IMG/VR virus record: IMGVR_UViG_3300000576_000009
Coordinates: 13,358 to 37,635 of that record
From: a virus
Strand: one strand, 5' to 3'
DNA length: 24,278 nucleotides
Under the pieces are notes generated by a model. The model searched no databases. It saw nothing but the letters and a program-made list of their open reading frames with translations, and had not been told where the DNA came from. This document shows positions 1 through 7,857 of this stretch, piece by piece (the first letter of the stretch is position 1; every line of letters begins with the position of its first letter). Made by a program: the position numbers and the translations under genes.

Positions 1-435
1 ATAGGTCTTTACTATAGTAATGAATTGGTTTCTGTTATGACATTTTCTAAAGGAAGAAAATCTATAGGTGCAAAAAAAGATGAATGGGAATTATCTAGGT
101 TTTGCAATAAAATAAACTATTCTGTCATTGGCGGTGCTTCAAAGTTATTTAAACATTTTTTAAAATATAATGATGGAAACATAATGACATTTTCAGATAA
201 TAGGTTATATGGAGGTGATTTATATTACAAATTAGGTTTCAATAAAGTAAAAGAAGTACCTCCAGGCTATTTTTACGTTAAAAATGAACAAAGATACCAT
301 AGATATAGATTTAGGAAGTCAGAACTCATTAAAATGGGTTATGACCCAAATAAAACTGAAAAGCAAATCATGCAAGAATTAAATTATCTAAAAATATATG
401 ATTGCGGTAACACTAAATTTATATATAAAAATTGA
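1..435 (+). CDS. C-terminal part of a phage homing-endonuclease-type protein (left-truncated)
   Basis: The reading frame is open from base 1 (IGLYYSNELVSVMTF...) to the TGA at 433-435, so the N-terminus lies outside the window; the TTG at 25 is not a convincing start. The visible 144 residues match, from memory of the family, the conserved C-terminal domain found after nuclease domains in phage 'Hef-like' and other homing endonucleases: a V-S-[VI]-M-T-F-[GS]-K strand, W-E-L-x-R-F-C, then VIGGASKLFKHF, a D-N-R-x-x-x-G-x-L-Y-x-K-L-G-F block, an aromatic strand ending in YFYVKN, and a terminal I-Y-D-C-G-N-x-K-F-I-Y strand. The nuclease domain itself cannot be seen. Such genes are selfish insertions between phage genes. 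The next gene starts after 45 nt, with its own putative promoter. Family is fairly certain; catalytic type and activity are unknown. Confidence 0.7.
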   Translation: MGLYYSNELVSVMTFSKGRKSIGAKKDEWELSRFCNKINYSVIGGASKLFKHFLKYNDGNIMTFSDNRLYGGDLYYKLGFNKVKEVPPGYFYVKNEQRYHRYRFRKSELIKMGYDPNKTEKQIMQELNYLKIYDCGNTKFIYKN

Positions 436-480: not shown

Positions 481-1245
481 ATGGATAATTATACAGCAAA
501 AAAAGCTTCTGAAGAAAATTTTAATTTAGAACATGATGTTGTTAAACTACCTTCTGAAGGTAAGTTTTATGCAAATAAAAAATCTTCTGTTAAGTGTGGT
601 TATTTAACAGCTCAAGATGAGGATTTATTAGCTTCTGGAGCACCAGATGTTTTAAACACATTACTTAGGAATAAAGTATATGAAAGTGATATTAGAATTG
701 AGGATTTGTTGGAATGTGATAGGATAGCGTTATTAGTTTTTCTAAGGACTACAGCATTTGGTCCAAATTTAGATGTCAGTATAACTTATAAACCAACTAA
801 AGGACCTGATGTAGGTAAAACAGTTGAGTTTGATTATAGTTATGATTTAACGCATATTAAAACCAAAGAACCTGAATTAATTCCTGATGAAAATAATTTA
901 TTTAATATTAAATTACCAGTTTCAGGTTATGAGGTAAAATGTAAAATATTAACCATTGGTGAAATAGATGAGTTTGAAGCTTATTTGGAAGAATTTAAAA
1001 ATACAGTAAAACCTGTGGTTACAGGTAGATTATCTAGACAAGTAGTTAGTATTAACGGAAATAGTGATAATATTTACGATAATATTAGAAAATTAAAAAT
1101 GGGGGATTCTAAATTTCTTAGAGCACAGTTAAAGAAATGTGAACCTACTTTAGACTTAGAAAGACAAATTAAAACCCCTTCTGGAGAAATAATTACAAGA
1201 AAAATACCTCTTCTAGGTACGGAGTTTTTTCGTCCCTTCTTCTAA
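481..1245 (+). CDS. gp26-like tail/baseplate hub assembly protein (T4_baseplate family)
   Basis: 254 aa. The architecture fits the T4 gp26-type baseplate/tail assembly family (about 200-250 aa): an N-terminal LPSEGKFY strand (residues 23-30), a helical LLRNKV...IRIEDLLECDRIALLVFLRTTAFG segment (62-94), a beta region, and a C-terminal strand ending in IPLLGTEFFRPFF, close to the IPL..FF.P ending I recall for the family. In T4, gp26 acts in hub assembly and is not a major finished-virion component. The gene sits immediately upstream of the putative tape measure, the usual slot for tail assembly chaperones. Its last codons (CGT CCC TTC TTC TAA) overlap a +1-frame ORF that resembles a small gp51-like partner, so a 303-aa frameshifted form is possible. 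There is no Shine-Dalgarno; the start is the first ATG, 7 nt after an AT-rich box. Family assignment is from pattern recognition, not a database search. Confidence 0.65.
   Translation: MDNYTAKKASEENFNLEHDVVKLPSEGKFYANKKSSVKCGYLTAQDEDLLASGAPDVLNTLLRNKVYESDIRIEDLLECDRIALLVFLRTTAFGPNLDVSITYKPTKGPDVGKTVEFDYSYDLTHIKTKEPELIPDENNLFNIKLPVSGYEVKCKILTIGEIDEFEAYLEEFKNTVKPVVTGRLSRQVVSINGNSDNIYDNIRKLKMGDSKFLRAQLKKCEPTLDLERQIKTPSGEIITRKIPLLGTEFFRPFF
1225..1243 (+). promoter_or_regulatory. Candidate programmed +1 (or -2) frameshift site
   Basis: At the end of the gp26-like gene the zero frame reads GAG TTT TTT CGT CCC TTC TTC TAA. The overlapping ORF is in the +1 frame and is open from 1217, just after a TAG at 1214-1216. 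Slippage of the proline tRNA from CCC (1234-1236) to CCT (1235-1237) would give ...EFFRP-SSKHREILL. The T6 run (1225-1230) and the final TTC-TAA pair are alternatives. A GGAG at 1221-1224, rare in this genome, lies 9 nt before CCC. Known tail chaperone genes use -1 shifts most often, with +1 and -2 cases also described. Mechanism and efficiency are inferred. Confidence 0.5.
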
Positions 1246-1393
1246 ACACAGAGAGATTTTATTAGATGAAATCTTTTACTTAGTCAAAGTTGGTAATTTT
1301 GATTACGGAAGTGTTAGAAGTATGGCTACCTATAAAAGAAAATATTTTATTAAGAAATTAAGTAACATGTATAAAAAAGAAACCTCAGATTAA
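1238..1393 (+). CDS. +1-frame ORF, gp51-like; probable frameshifted C-terminal extension of the gp26-like protein
   Basis: This ORF encodes 51 residues beginning SSKHREILLDEIFYLVKV and ending KKETSD at the TAA 1391-1393. The pattern, EILLDEIFYL, an aromatic F-D-Y-G-S-V segment, then YKRKYFIKKL and a Lys-rich tail, resembles short gp51-like or hub assembly proteins of T4-like phages as I recall them. The conserved part starts with no ATG, GTG or TTG in frame; the only in-frame ATG that leaves a product of any size (1322) would give just 23 aa. The upstream overlap with the preceding gene is therefore most simply explained by ribosomal frameshifting, producing 252 + 51 = 303 aa. Alternatives are initiation at a rare codon such as ATT 1256, or a real or sequencing frameshift in a formerly single gene. 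The stop codon lies inside the loop of a terminator hairpin. Confidence 0.6.
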   Translation, partial: SSKHREILLDEIFYLVKVGNFDYGSVRSMATYKRKYFIKKLSNMYKKETSD

Positions 1394-1449: not shown

Positions 1450-3357
1450 ATGAGTAGTAACCCTAAAAAAAAGATTTCTGAAATTGGAGCATCCGCAATT
1501 GAAAGCGAAGCTTCAGTAAAAAAATTGTTTGGTACAATAAGCGATTCTTTTAAGAAAAACTTATCTGTAACTGGTTTTATTGATGCTAGAGTTAAATTAG
1601 AAGATGAATCTGCTAAATTAGCTAGAGAGGTTATGGGTCAAGGTAGAATGGTCATAACTGAATTAGAAAAAAATCTAGCTAGAGCCTCGGCTAGAACTGC
1701 TAAATTTAACATAGGGTTAGAAGATAATGTTAAGTTGATAGGTGACATGAACACCGCATTCCAAAGAAATATTTTTTTAACTGAAGAACAGATTGAAAGA
1801 ATGCAATTATTGGCAATGAATGCAGGCTTAACCTCTAATGAAATAGCTTCAATGGTAACACTATTTGATAATATTGGAGTTAATACTGAAAAAGCTATAA
1901 GTAACATTGCTGAAATGGAATCTGAAGCTAGAAAATATGGTTTAAATGTTTCACAATTTATGGGTGAAATGGAAAAAAACTTAAAAGAATTAAATAAATT
2001 TAACTTTAGAAATGGTATTGAGGGGTTTACTAGAATGTTAAGTGTCGCACAGTCATTAAGAATGGATGTTCAAAGAACTTTTAGTTTGGCTGAAAATTTA
2101 TTAGACCCTGAAAATGCAATAGAAATGGCGGCAGGATTCCAAATGTTAGGAGGTGAAATAGGTGCATTAGGAGACCCTTTTTCATTATTGCATATGGCTC
2201 AGAATGATGCCGAAGGACTGCAAAACGCTATAATAGATATGGCTAAAAGTAGTGCAATGTTTAATGAACAAACTGGTGAATTTGAGATTGCTACCACAGA
2301 AGTATACAAACTTAGAGAAGCGGCTAAATTAACAGGTCAAAGTTGGGAAGAATTATCTAATACTGCAATATTGTCTGCAAGTAAAATGATGAAAATGGAC
2401 ATGCTAGACGGTTTATTAGATGACAGTTTTAGTGATGAAGATAAAGAATTAATTGCTAATTTATCTCAAATAGAAGGTGGTCGTGTAATGCTTAATATGG
2501 GTGACGGCAAAATAGATGTTGGTGAACTAGAAAGTAAAGATATAGACAAACTAAGACAATTCCAAGAGGAAGCGTCAAAAAGTGAAAGAGATATAGCTAT
2601 AGGACAGTTAACTACTTTACAATCTATAGAAGGTATAGTTAAAGGTTTAGATTCTGTAGGATTTAATGTTGCTTTATCTAGCGATTTAGCAAATGATATG
2701 TCTGAAATATTAAAGAAAGGTGCATTATCATTTAATGAGACAATAACTAATATGGATGAAGAAAGTTCAATATTAGGCATCGTAAATAAATTAGATGAAA
2801 TAGGTAAAAATGTATTATCAGGAGAAGTTGATGCTGATGACGTAAATTTAGTTAGACAAGAATTAATTGATGATTTCTTAAAATTAACTAAAGATACGAT
2901 ATCAACAACAAGTGATAACTTTAAAGAATCTATAAATGAGGGTAATATGTTTGTTGGTTCGGCTAATAAAATGGTGGAATTTTTCAGTGAAGCTATGGAA
3001 GAGGGTACTTTTAATTTAAAAAGTGCATTAGATAGTACTAAAGAATCTATAAATAATATAATAAAATCTTCTAAGGGAGAAAGTCAAAAAGTAAGCCCTA
3101 GTGCTAAAGACGAAGCAGAAATTAGGGAACAATTTAAAGGTGTATCAGTAAATAATAGTTCAGGTGAAATAGAATTAAAAAGTGGTACTCAAAAAGTACA
3201 AGTAGAAATAATGAACCCTAACGGTAATAAAAGTTTAGCCAGTACTGATATAACAGAAGAGGTTGTTAAATTATTGAAAAGTGAAAAAGGTTCTCAAATT
3301 ATAAAAAATATTTTTAATAACTCTAAAGGAGATTATCGTGATACTAAAACAGTATAA
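1450..3357 (+). CDS. Putative tail tape measure protein (gp29 position)
   Basis: 635 aa, soluble, predominantly helical by eye, with long runs lacking proline. It has no signal peptide. The N-terminal 25-130 region is Lys/Glu-rich amphipathic helix. The centre includes NVSQFMGEMEKNLKELNKF and QSLRMDVQRTFSLAENLLDP, then AAGFQMLGGEIGALGDPFSLL, a style I associate with tape measure and related structural proteins of Bacteroidota phages. Its position, directly after a gp26-like chaperone gene and before tube-initiator and hub genes, is that of T4 gene 29 (590 aa). With the common rule of about 0.15 nm per residue, a tail tube near 95 nm would be expected. No transmembrane segment is obvious, unlike many tape measures. 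It could instead be another helical structural protein; the call rests mainly on order, length and helicity. Confidence 0.5.
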   Translation: MSSNPKKKISEIGASAIESEASVKKLFGTISDSFKKNLSVTGFIDARVKLEDESAKLAREVMGQGRMVITELEKNLARASARTAKFNIGLEDNVKLIGDMNTAFQRNIFLTEEQIERMQLLAMNAGLTSNEIASMVTLFDNIGVNTEKAISNIAEMESEARKYGLNVSQFMGEMEKNLKELNKFNFRNGIEGFTRMLSVAQSLRMDVQRTFSLAENLLDPENAIEMAAGFQMLGGEIGALGDPFSLLHMAQNDAEGLQNAIIDMAKSSAMFNEQTGEFEIATTEVYKLREAAKLTGQSWEELSNTAILSASKMMKMDMLDGLLDDSFSDEDKELIANLSQIEGGRVMLNMGDGKIDVGELESKDIDKLRQFQEEASKSERDIAIGQLTTLQSIEGIVKGLDSVGFNVALSSDLANDMSEILKKGALSFNETITNMDEESSILGIVNKLDEIGKNVLSGEVDADDVNLVRQELIDDFLKLTKDTISTTSDNFKESINEGNMFVGSANKMVEFFSEAMEEGTFNLKSALDSTKESINNIIKSSKGESQKVSPSAKDEAEIREQFKGVSVNNSSGEIELKSGTQKVQVEIMNPNGNKSLASTDITEEVVKLLKSEKGSQIIKNIFNNSKGDYRDTKTV

Positions 3358-3360
3358 ATA
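3353..3360 (+). promoter_or_regulatory. TATAAATA directly before the next ATG (weak candidate)
   Basis: An exact TATAAATA, the T4 late-promoter consensus, abuts the ATG at 3361. It partly overlaps the end and stop codon of the preceding gene (GTA TAA ATA ATG). It lacks the CTATATTTAT flank of the other boxes. In sequence this AT-rich it may be chance. Confidence 0.2.
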
Positions 3361-6300
3361 ATGAGTAATATAAACACAGATAGTATAACAAATATAAGAA
3401 ATTCATTAATGAATTTAAATTTACCACCATATAATGAAAATTTTGGTTATAGTGGTGAAATACCTAACACCTCAATATCATTACCAATATATGAAGTAAC
3501 GCAAAATTCTTCAATAACACCTAATATATATAATATATATGTACCTACAAATGGTTATGAAGAGGTTAACATTAATACATTAAATAATGTACTTAGTACT
3601 AATGAACCTTATTTTAAATTCATTAGTTCTTCTTATTCACCGTTTAGAATATTAGTAGACCAAGACCCTATGGGTTCTAACGGTAATTTAAGTGAAGATT
3701 CTAATTTAGCTAAAATTAATGCTGAAAGTTTAAGAAGAGAATTTCAATTCAGAATCACTCAAGAAACTAAAAAACAAACGATATATAGAAACAACCTTTT
3801 AGATTCAAATAATGATATATTTGATTTAATGGCGATTTCTACAGGAAATAGAGCAATAATAGAAAGAGATTGGAGGATATCAGTTCCGAATAATTTAATT
3901 GATAGAAATATAGATTTTAAAAGTAGGTTAAGTGGTTTATACGCACCTTATTCTTTTATACCTGGTGATTATTTTGGTAAAGGCAGAAAGGTTTCACTTA
4001 TAAATACCGCAGTGAATGCAGTTACAGGGTTATTTGATAGAAGAGGTATTTTGAGGTTACCACCTACTAAATCTATGATGGAAATATTCTTAGAAAATAC
4101 TGGTGACGGTAATAAAGATATGTTATTTAGAACTCTATCATTTAACGAATATAGACCTGATTATAGAACTAATCTATTAACTTTTTTAAATCCATTTTTA
4201 AATCCACCTAAAGGTAATTTTTATATTGGAGATAGAGAAACTACAGTTGATAGTTTAAGTATGAATACCGAACAATTACCTATAAATAAATTTGGTGAAT
4301 TTGTAGAAATAAGACCTTCAGGGGATTATGTAATTTCTGAAGAATATGAAAATTTGGATAGTAAATTTGCTTTATCATCAGATTCTTATTATGCGACAGG
4401 TAATTTGTTAGATGGTTTCACTTGGGTAGGTTCTTTAACTAGAGAAAATGCTGGATTTTTACAAGGTTCTGGGGGTGTTAATATTATCAATAATGGTAAA
4501 TTAAGATTAGTAAGTTTTGAAAAGACGGAATCAGATATTAAGCCTTTTAGATTAGGCAGTGTTATGGATATGACTCAAAGGATAATCGAGTCTTCAGAAA
4601 TGTTAAATGGTTCTAGCAGACTTAAACATGCGGGCCATGCTATAAATCAGGTAAGTAAAGTATTCAATGATGGTTTAAGAGAAATTACTAAAGGTTCTAA
4701 AGTTAAAAGTTATTTAGATGAAAACGGTAGAATAGTAGGTAAAGAATATTGTAGAGTTTGGACTAAAGATAATCCTTTTATGTTGGCCAGTGATTTACAA
4801 AAATACGATGGTATTACAGAAAAAAATAGAAGATTTAATGGTTCAGTATTAGATAGTACAACTAATTTAAATATTGTACCTAATAGAGGGGAAGATTCTA
4901 CTAACATAAAAGAGGGTAAAGTCAAAAAGTATATGTTTTCTTTAGAAAACCTAGCTTGGAAAAATTCTTCTAGAAAAGGTAGAACTTATAATGAATTACC
5001 TGCACATGAGAAAGGACCTAACGGAGGAAGAATTATGTGGTTTCCACCATATGATATACAAATATCAGAACAAAATTCAGGTAATTGGAATTCAAATGTA
5101 TTCTTAGGTAGACCCGAACCCGTATATACGTACAATAATACCGAGAGAATGGGTAATTTATCTTTTAAGATTGTTGTTGACCACCCTTCAATATTAAATG
5201 CAATAGTAGATAAAGAATTAAATAGTGAAAATAGTCAAAGAGTTAATGAAATAGTGGATTCTTTTTTAGCAGGTTGTAGAAAATACGATATATATGAATT
5301 AGCTACTAGATTCCCTCAATTTTCATATTCAGACATATACGAAATAATAGAGAAAACTGAAAATATTGAATTATTAGAAGAAGTTATAAGAGAAGTTCCT
5401 AAAGAAAGAGATATTGTAGATATTGAAAATAAATATACTCCAGTAATAACTGAAGATGATTATGATATTGATTTTTTATTTGCTAATGACAGCCCAACCC
5501 CTAAAAATATAAATATAACAACATCTAATATTGACTACAATCAAGCTTTAGCGTCATTATTGAACACTGAGACTACGGTAGAACAAGTTGGTGGTATAGC
5601 TTCTAAAAATTTTTTAATAGAAGCTACTAAAGATATTACTGATAAGACAAGTAATTTAATTAATAAAATAGTGGATGCTTTTGATTCTGGGGTAAAAAAG
5701 ATAATAATAACCATAGAGGGTACTGCTTCATCACCTTCAAGTGTTAATTATAATAAATCGTTATCTAAAAGAAGAATAGATTCGGTAAAACAAAAAATAT
5801 TAAATAATAGTAATATAATTAAATATTCTGACAGAATTGAATGGGTAGAAAAAGCTTTTGGGGAGGAGGCTACTGTCAATATATTAGGCACAACTTTAGA
5901 TTGTTCTGAAGATTTAGATGGGAATGACAAATATTACTCAATATCAGCAATAGGTTGTAGAAGAGTTAAAATTACAAATATTGAAGAAATTGAACCAGAA
6001 ATTGAGGATAATGAAAATGAAGAAGAGGTTGAGTATGTAGAAGAGAGTGTAGTTAAAACTAAAATAGTTGAAAGAAACACTGAATCGCTTGAATTAAGGG
6101 AAAATATAGCTAAAATAGTGGTTAAAAAATTATTAACTGAGGGTGATTATTTTAATATTTTAAAAGAAGAAGACCCTGTAATATATGATGGAATAAAAGA
6201 AAAGTTTAAATATTTTCACCCTGCATTTCATTCCACAACTCCTGAAGGTTTAAATAGTAGATTAACTTTTTTACAACAATGTCTTAGACCTGGTGATACA

Positions 6301-7857
6301 ATACCAGTTTTAGATAAAAATGGTAATGTTAGAAAAGATGATACGGTTAATACCGCTTTTGGTACACCACCTATTTGTGTGCTTAGAATTGGTGATTTTT
6401 ACCATAGTAAAATAGCAATTAATAGTATGGCTATTAATTATGAACCGTTAGTTTATGATATGAATCCTGAAGGTATAGGTATGCAACCTATGATTGCTAA
6501 CGTATCAATATCTTTCTATTTTATAGGAGGTCAGGCTTTAAATAACCCTGTTGAAAGATTGCAAAATGCCTTATCATTTAACTTTTTTGCTAATACTGAG
6601 GTTTATGATGATAGGAGCGTGGAAACTGAAGACCTAACGGAGCTAAATGAAGAGGTTTTAGAAAGAATAAATGATAATACACCTTTTAATACTAAAAACT
6701 CCGTAAATGACCCTGATAATGATTTTGGGGCAACAATAGGTACTACATTATCATCTAGTATTACAGAATTAAATGGAGAAGAAACTATAGAAGGACAATT
6801 TTCATATAAAACAATAATGGAAGAATATGTTTCGTTAGTAAATGAATATAACGACACCATATTAGATAATTTAAATTATATAAATGATAATTACTTAATA
6901 GGTGGTTTAACTTTATTATTGACAGACAGAGATTATATAAATGGTTCTACAATAGGATATTTTAATAATACTAATGATAAAGAAATTAAAATATTAGGTA
7001 AACCTAAAAAAATAAAAGATAAGATAACTCTATTATATGATACATGCGTAGGTTATGTTGAGGATGAGACATCGCCCTTATTAGAGGATTATAAAGACTT
7101 CAATTTCAAAAGAAGAGATAGAAAAAAATACGTTAGAAACATATTAAATTTATTTCAAATAATTTACGAAGATTATAATTTTAGATTTAATAATTTCATT
7201 TTTTCAACTAAAACAGTACAAGAAAAATTAATTTCTAAAATAGAAAAGATAGATTTTATACTTAATGATTCGGATGCTTATAGTTTAAAAACTGGTAAAA
7301 TAGTAACTTTTGAAATAACACCTACAAATGAGGTAAATTCTAACGCTACAGACACTAAGGAAGAGTTATTGGATGATATAGAACAGATTAGTGATGATTT
7401 AAACAACTTATATAGTAATTTAGAGAATTTAAATATAATACCAAATTATAATAATAAGTTTAACAATAATTTTAATTACAACACTTTTACAAATAATACC
7501 CCACAATCAGTTAGTTTAGTAACATTAATAGGTGGGTATTTTAAAAATACTGATACTACTATCATATTAGATATTTTATCAGAAGGTTTGGAAGGTGATT
7601 TCATTGACTATATAGAAAATAAAGTTATTTTATTAAAAGAAGAGTATAGTAATTCATATAATAGTAGTTCACAATTATTGAATTCTATAGATGACACATT
7701 ATCTAATTATTCACCTTTTAATGATAAAGAAAGAGTTTTTGATTATATAAAATTAATAGATAATGACCCAATAATAGAAGGTTACTTTAGTAGGTTATCT
7801 AGTTCAAGTAATACTAATAATAATTTAAATAAATTCAACGGAAAAAGAATATTGTAA
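3361..7857 (+). CDS. Giant tail-tube-initiator/baseplate protein with inserted OmpA-like domain
   Basis: 1498 aa. Two segments look like the halves of the tube-initiator (gp48/gp54-type) proteins of contractile tails. About 551-615 has GGRIMWFPPYDIQISE, a Trp, then LGRPEPVYTYNNTERMG and a LSFKIVVDHPS strand. About 996-1075 has GTPPICVLRIGDFYHSKI, NPEGIGMQPMI and VSISFYFIGG. Between them, about 700-865, lies an OmpA-like fold: FLFANDSPTP, then IEGTASSPSSVNYNKSLSKR and RIDSV. The N-LS-x-RR-x-x-SV pattern matches the peptidoglycan-binding helix, with the binding Arg kept and the TD aspartate replaced. An acidic linker (868-900) and an Asn-rich, helical C-terminus follow. It starts 3 nt after the previous stop and ends in a TAATG overlap with the next gene, so translation is probably coupled. 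Domain calls are by eye; the role as an initiator is inferred. Confidence 0.55.
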   Translation: MSNINTDSITNIRNSLMNLNLPPYNENFGYSGEIPNTSISLPIYEVTQNSSITPNIYNIYVPTNGYEEVNINTLNNVLSTNEPYFKFISSSYSPFRILVDQDPMGSNGNLSEDSNLAKINAESLRREFQFRITQETKKQTIYRNNLLDSNNDIFDLMAISTGNRAIIERDWRISVPNNLIDRNIDFKSRLSGLYAPYSFIPGDYFGKGRKVSLINTAVNAVTGLFDRRGILRLPPTKSMMEIFLENTGDGNKDMLFRTLSFNEYRPDYRTNLLTFLNPFLNPPKGNFYIGDRETTVDSLSMNTEQLPINKFGEFVEIRPSGDYVISEEYENLDSKFALSSDSYYATGNLLDGFTWVGSLTRENAGFLQGSGGVNIINNGKLRLVSFEKTESDIKPFRLGSVMDMTQRIIESSEMLNGSSRLKHAGHAINQVSKVFNDGLREITKGSKVKSYLDENGRIVGKEYCRVWTKDNPFMLASDLQKYDGITEKNRRFNGSVLDSTTNLNIVPNRGEDSTNIKEGKVKKYMFSLENLAWKNSSRKGRTYNELPAHEKGPNGGRIMWFPPYDIQISEQNSGNWNSNVFLGRPEPVYTYNNTERMGNLSFKIVVDHPSILNAIVDKELNSENSQRVNEIVDSFLAGCRKYDIYELATRFPQFSYSDIYEIIEKTENIELLEEVIREVPKERDIVDIENKYTPVITEDDYDIDFLFANDSPTPKNINITTSNIDYNQALASLLNTETTVEQVGGIASKNFLIEATKDITDKTSNLINKIVDAFDSGVKKIIITIEGTASSPSSVNYNKSLSKRRIDSVKQKILNNSNIIKYSDRIEWVEKAFGEEATVNILGTTLDCSEDLDGNDKYYSISAIGCRRVKITNIEEIEPEIEDNENEEEVEYVEESVVKTKIVERNTESLELRENIAKIVVKKLLTEGDYFNILKEEDPVIYDGIKEKFKYFHPAFHSTTPEGLNSRLTFLQQCLRPGDTIPVLDKNGNVRKDDTVNTAFGTPPICVLRIGDFYHSKIAINSMAINYEPLVYDMNPEGIGMQPMIANVSISFYFIGGQALNNPVERLQNALSFNFFANTEVYDDRSVETEDLTELNEEVLERINDNTPFNTKNSVNDPDNDFGATIGTTLSSSITELNGEETIEGQFSYKTIMEEYVSLVNEYNDTILDNLNYINDNYLIGGLTLLLTDRDYINGSTIGYFNNTNDKEIKILGKPKKIKDKITLLYDTCVGYVEDETSPLLEDYKDFNFKRRDRKKYVRNILNLFQIIYEDYNFRFNNFIFSTKTVQEKLISKIEKIDFILNDSDAYSLKTGKIVTFEITPTNEVNSNATDTKEELLDDIEQISDDLNNLYSNLENLNIIPNYNNKFNNNFNYNTFTNNTPQSVSLVTLIGGYFKNTDTTIILDILSEGLEGDFIDYIENKVILLKEEYSNSYNSSSQLLNSIDDTLSNYSPFNDKERVFDYIKLIDNDPIIEGYFSRLSSSSNTNNNLNKFNGKRIL

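Follow-up and report, generated by a model that had tools for sequence, protein, structure and literature searches.

A probable +1 frameshift between overlapping ORFs of a T4 gp26/gp51-family tail assembly chaperone gene in a branch of T4-like phages

The window, the whole stretch of 24,278 nucleotides analysed here, belongs to a viral contig of 37.6 kb (L205). The genes of this region are arranged in the order tail sheath, tail tube, homing endonuclease, gp26-like gene, a second open reading frame (ORF2), and tape-measure-like gene (Table 1). The tail tube gene lies upstream at L205 11665-12153, and the tail sheath gene at L205 7545-10688. The sheath protein has 1047 aa, and a 496-position sheath profile matches its residues 8-1044, which indicates large insertions. 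The homing endonuclease has 531 aa and is encoded by the first part of the window plus upstream sequence (L205 12197-13792). The protein encoded after ORF2 was matched by a profile of post-ORF2 proteins from 53 relatives (E = 1.2e-14, against five window proteins); this match had a high composition bias, and the other window proteins were not matched by the same profile. In the phage immuto, the protein after ORF2 is annotated as the tail tape measure. A preliminary description of this DNA had placed the gp26-like/ORF2 pair directly before a putative tape measure gene, and the profile match agrees with it. The pair sits between the tail tube and tape-measure genes, as pairs of the G/GT type do, with the homing endonuclease intervening. 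Because the sheath and tube genes lie upstream and a tape-measure-like protein is encoded downstream, the locus, judged by gene order, is where a tail assembly chaperone gene would be expected.

Two other genes of the contig were observed. The tape-measure-like gene is directly followed by a gene (window 3361-7857) for a 1498-aa protein. Residues 756-837 of this protein match an OmpA-family domain (E = 1.4e-6), apparently an uncommon find among phage tail genes. On the minus strand, L205 (G000:C1) 3077-5842 encodes a 921-aa UvsW-like helicase in which an insert of about 370 residues interrupts the SNF2 domain. The insert matches profiles of phage terminases and gives a weak match to an intein/homing-endonuclease Hint model; it is probably an intein.

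Table 1. Features at and around the gp26-like gene (positions in the window)
Feature	Position	Strand	Remarks
Homing endonuclease gene end, between tail tube and gp26-like genes	1-435	+	PHROG_3339/559
gp26-like gene, putative short tail assembly chaperone (TAC-N)	481-1245	+	0 frame, 254 aa
+1-frame open region	1217-1393	+	58 codons, ~51 past junction; stop TAA 1391-1393
GGAG, 3 nt before slip codon, prfB-like spacing	1221-1224	+	sequence
Proposed slip site TTT TTT C	1225-1231	+	position shared by 74 diverged family members
Possible downstream RNA fold	1231-1320	+	-23 kcal/mol, z -3.06 (90 nt)
TAC-C ('T' / gp51 C-terminus) segment of proposed fused product	from about 1232 to 1393	+	+1 frame
Alternative slip site CCC_T (Pro)	1234-1237	+	junction would be ...EFFRP-SSK
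Tape-measure-like protein, 635 aa	1450-3357	+	profile match

The gp26-like protein was matched by PF12322 (T4_baseplate; E = 1.9e-6, 28.1 bits against a curated cut-off of 24.5) and by PHROG_150 (baseplate hub; E = 1.3e-7). Its structural match was a baseplate hub subunit of SP-15 (BFVD, E = 5.6e-17). Solved tail assembly chaperones in the PDB gave no match at E <= 0.001 in the structure search and none that was significant in the sequence search; diverged chaperones may escape both. The 3' end of the gene reads GAG TTT TTT CGT CCC TTC TTC TAA. As described earlier, it is overlapped by an ORF without a standard start: ATG, GTG and TTG are absent until an ATG at 1321, which is already inside the conserved part. 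This ORF had no family match. Its equivalent in the Microcystis phage Mel-JY01 is 42% identical over 57 aa (BLASTP E = 3e-10, single comparison), and because of this match the ORF clearly encodes a protein, as the protein-like pattern of its 51 codons had suggested. The gp26 proteins of the window and Mel-JY01 share only 27%, and the second ORF is out of frame in the same direction in both. The +1-frame ORF is also conserved in A8. The closest relatives of the window protein have 31-32% identity, and the window stands on a long branch of the tree with no close relative found; a first single-sequence scan of viral contigs had found no relatives.

Scans of viral and genome (MAG) contigs gave about 100 loci beyond the annotated or near-complete records, and family alignments were made within close sub-families. 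The +1 branch consists of the window, Bacteroidota-type phages, Thornevirus, SagM, and related metagenomic phages. Of 93 +1-branch loci whose downstream sequence was long enough, 92 had a +1 frame open for at least 40 codons past the gp26 stop; over the 93 loci, the median was 71 codons for this frame and 11 for the other. The +1 overlap at Phe-Phe codons was also found in immuto, Mel-JY01, SP-15, LIS04, SagM, and LR756508. In RM378, the +1 frame is present and its product is doubtful; the second ORFs of RM378 and Atu_ph07 are so diverged that their assignment is doubtful. The alignment of homologues at the junction had been set beforehand as a test of the candidate programmed frameshift. The out-of-frame overlap and the slip position proved to be conserved in about 100 diverse relatives, which supports the candidate. 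A base missing or added at 1225-1243, in the homopolymer at the junction of a metagenomic contig, might also have split one in-frame gene. The preliminary description had named such an indel as a refuting case, but the break recurs at the same codons in complete phage records and in some 100 contigs of independent origin, so that the chance of this error is negligible. From these comparisons, the overlap is neither an accident nor a sequencing error.

Three slip sites had been offered, namely the T6 run, CCC-TTC, and TTC-TAA. The slip codon TTT_C (1228-1231) in the T6 run is the only one found family-wide. Among 74 representatives with less than 75% aa identity, the P-site codon and the next base were TTT_T in 63, TTT_C in 6, CTT_T in 3, CTA_T in 1, and TTT_A in 1. 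The slip codons are TTT TTT TGG in 57 of the 74, and TTT TTT TGG CCT is the near-universal junction of the +1 branch; the window instead has TTT TTT CGT. Most relatives do not share CCC_T, which is compatible with the window and SagM alone, and TTC-TAA is not common to the relatives; both were rejected as the main slip site. The wobble positions in the slip site carry 1.8-1.9 bits and are near-invariant, most upstream wobbles carry approximately 0, and TTC makes up 23% of the other Phe codons in these genes. Therefore, selection acts on the nucleotides of the slip site, beyond the amino acids.

The variant junctions bear on the kind of slippage. SagM, L180, and L181 have TTC TTT C, other members have TTT CTT T with a broken T run, and the +1 frame relation is kept in both groups. 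Transcriptional slippage on the T run would restore the frame as well, and 6-7 T are present at the junction of most members. Runs of 6-7 bases are short for slippage of bacterial RNA polymerase, which counts against this explanation, and the broken-run members hold the same frame relation; we consider it highly improbable. A -2 frameshift, as in Mu, would give a fusion one residue longer. In the window and most other members, the T6/T7 runs would let the tRNA re-pair two bases back, and the Mu tail chaperone provides a precedent (PMC5009743). However, in SagM, L180, and L181, a -2 shift would put the Phe tRNA on TCT, and the LR756508 junction, TTT CTA TTC, is better explained by a +1 shift on the first TTT_C. 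Because TTC TTT C re-pairs forward and not two bases back, +1 shifting is favoured by the sequences, and we regard -2 shifting as unlikely. In L060, the T run is lost; here A_AAT_TTC precedes a second ORF in the -1 frame, in the region where the gp26-like gene ends (about 3200-3480). L060 is the sole +1-branch member found with a -1-frame second ORF, a natural switch of frameshift direction.

Possible stimulators of the +1 shift were also considered. The GGAG just upstream, pointed out earlier, is present in the window, but it is not a conserved signal: GGAG was found within 18 nt in 9 of the 74 family members. An upstream SD, as in prfB, was rejected as a stimulator, and the GGAG of the window is probably incidental. 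For the downstream fold, the first 70 nt in the window gave a z of -0.87. The mean z of the +1 group was -0.7 to -1.0, compared with -0.2 to -0.6 in the controls. A conserved downstream RNA structure in this group was rejected on this weak signal, despite the z of -3 of the window's own 90 nt. Because the group signal is weak, it is doubtful that the fold in the window is a real element.

ORF2 might instead be a separate small gene, with a non-standard start or with re-initiation coupled to the gp26 stop. An ATG occurs shortly past the slip site in most cyanophage-type members, and a short gp51 is annotated on its own in databases. Yet in several cyanophages this ATG lies within a stable hairpin, and in the window and 26 of 71 +1-branch representatives, ATG, GTG, and TTG are absent from the ORF2 frame near the junction (in the representatives, as far as 15 codons beyond the slip). 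A separate gene would also leave the invariant slip bases unexplained, and we consider it quite improbable compared with a frameshift.

In the sister branch, ORF2 was in the -1 frame in all 79 cyanophage-type loci with enough sequence, and T_TTT_TTC was found upstream of it in 36 of 36 representatives. The same site occurs in KVP40, phiAS5, S13, Moby, and ACP17, and related T-rich sites occur in phiN3, Melnitz-3, and RHph. These sister-branch loci have the canonical X_XXY_YYZ heptamer with a -1 ORF, whereas the window, in the +1 phase, does not. In the cyanophage set, a downstream hairpin signal was found with a mean z of -2.4 at the site; the mean z was near 0 at offsets -400, -250, and +40, and -0.9 at -120. 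The stems of the cyanophage hairpin vary in register. In the tree, two loci (L007 and L008; LR756511 and Agrobacterium phage Atu_ph07) are placed at the base of the +1 branch, and their second ORF is in the -1 frame. Because of these basal loci, -1 may be the ancestral direction. Unannotated second ORFs were observed straight after gp26 in Cronobacter phage S13 (L204 2193-2387) and Synechococcus phage S-CAM7 (L015 2486-2692).

PF12322 spans T4 gp26 and T4 gp51 end to end. In a whole-record search, two copies were found in T4 and Acinetobacter phage Lazarus and one in 15 other phages; immuto and Mel-JY01 gave no match, since the model misses their gp26-like proteins. The T4 gp26 and gp51 genes are separate paralogues on opposite strands, and both proteins fall inside the -1 branch of the tree, on long branches whose order is left open. 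The +1-branch ORF2 profile is homologous to the cyanophage/KVP40 gp51-segment profile (prob 94.6), and the sister-branch second-ORF profile aligns to T4 gp51 residues 199-244. The +1-branch ORF2 profile had no direct match to T4 gp51 and is linked to it only via the cyanophage/KVP40 profile. The match of T4 gp51 to PF12322 plus the C segment means that the fused form exists as a gene. T4 and Lazarus thus appear to have two paralogues, a short gp26 and a fused gp51, and T4 would make both forms from two genes. The earlier statement that T4 encodes gp26 and gp51 separately was correct, but gp51 is not a mere second ORF; it is a full-length gp26 paralogue plus a C-terminal segment. In cyanophages and vibriophages, the N-terminal ~200 residues are missing from gp51 (Sullivan 2010, PMC3037559), and T4 gp51 is essential yet absent from the particle (PMC3004832).

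The window therefore shares its protein family with T4 gp26/gp51 (PF12322, PHROG_150/634), which comprises a short form and a C-terminally extended form. T4 has two separate genes, whereas in the window a single gene would be extended out of frame by a +1 shift. The gp26 and short gp51 of cyanophages, KVP40, phiAS5, and S13 have homologous N and C parts, a Phe-Phe junction, and one gp26 copy, as in the window; unlike the window, they use the -1 frame at T_TTT_TTC and are annotated as two genes. A lambda-style strategy in a T4-like lineage, as first proposed, is supported, but it is not confined to a single lineage. Judged by their sequences, the majority of the T4-like phages examined seem to use the two-form strategy at -1 or +1, and T4 appears to be the exception.

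We believe it very probable, from the sequence comparisons, that the two ORFs of the window are one tail-chaperone gene of the T4 gp26/gp51 family that is +1-shifted on TTT_C and yields TAC-N and TAC-NC. Most ribosomes would stop at 1243-1245 and produce TAC-N. In a minority, the P-site tRNA-Phe on TTT (1228-1230) would slip to TTC (1229-1231), with CGT as the A-site codon. The product would then be TAC-NC of 303 aa, with ...TEFF-VPSSKHREILLDEIF... and the junction ...EFF-VPSSK. If the two forms act as lambda gpG and gpGT do, the N part may bind the product of the following tape-measure-like gene, and tail tube subunits may be recruited by the C segment.

Shifts in tail chaperones have been recorded in three forms, -1, -2, and +1 (PMC5009743). 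Lambda G/GT, P2 E/E', and Mu 41/42 resemble the window in having an overlapping out-of-frame pair between the tube and tape measure genes, with a low-level shift near the 3' end, which we propose likewise for the window. Their shifts are -1 or -2, and no sequence or solved-structure similarity to the window was found. The tail chaperone of the haloarchaeal myovirus HSTV-2 very likely uses +1, and in Listeria phage PSA, capsid and tail genes shift +1 at Pro codons (PMC5009743). These shifts are in structural or assembly genes as in the window, but the proteins or hosts differ, and in the tail gene of PSA the slip occurs next to a stop codon, whereas the A-site codon of the window is a sense codon. 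In the +1 shift of prfB (RF2), a P-site pyrimidine codon is followed by U, as in the members with CUU_U, and the SD-like GGAG of the window lies at a prfB-like distance (3 nt) upstream. Unlike prfB, the window has no A-site stop codon, and the upstream SD is unconserved in the family.

Vladimirov, Gautam, and Davidson (Virology, 2022) reportedly identified the tail assembly chaperones of T4-like phages as a short-plus-fused gene pair. In the passages of later papers that cite this work, it is the source for TAC-N and TAC-NC of T4-like phages (PMC10885494, PMC12846349) and is credited with the poly-T -1 signals in these phages (PMC12846349). As far as these passages go, the T4 assignment and the poly-T -1 signals are already published and are not new here. 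The apparent novelties are the large +1 branch, its sense A-site codon, and the change of direction at one site. A +1 branch with conserved TTT_T and a sense A-site codon was not found described in the open-access literature, which is weak evidence of novelty. On balance, we lean to the view that this T4-like branch has an undescribed conserved +1 motif, UUU_U(GG)/UUU_Y/CUU_U, with a sense A-site codon and no obvious stimulator, at the codons used for -1 in the sister branch. The direction would have changed at least twice, L060 included, with both proteins kept.

According to a recent tool paper, forward shifts have no known general motif (PMC10885494). The +1 branch gives a large natural set of putative +1 sites with a sense A-site codon. 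Many annotated pairs of 'gp26 + short gp51' or 'hypothetical' proteins would be one gene. The two-form tail chaperone strategy appears to run through the T4-like phages, with the two genes of T4 as the exception.
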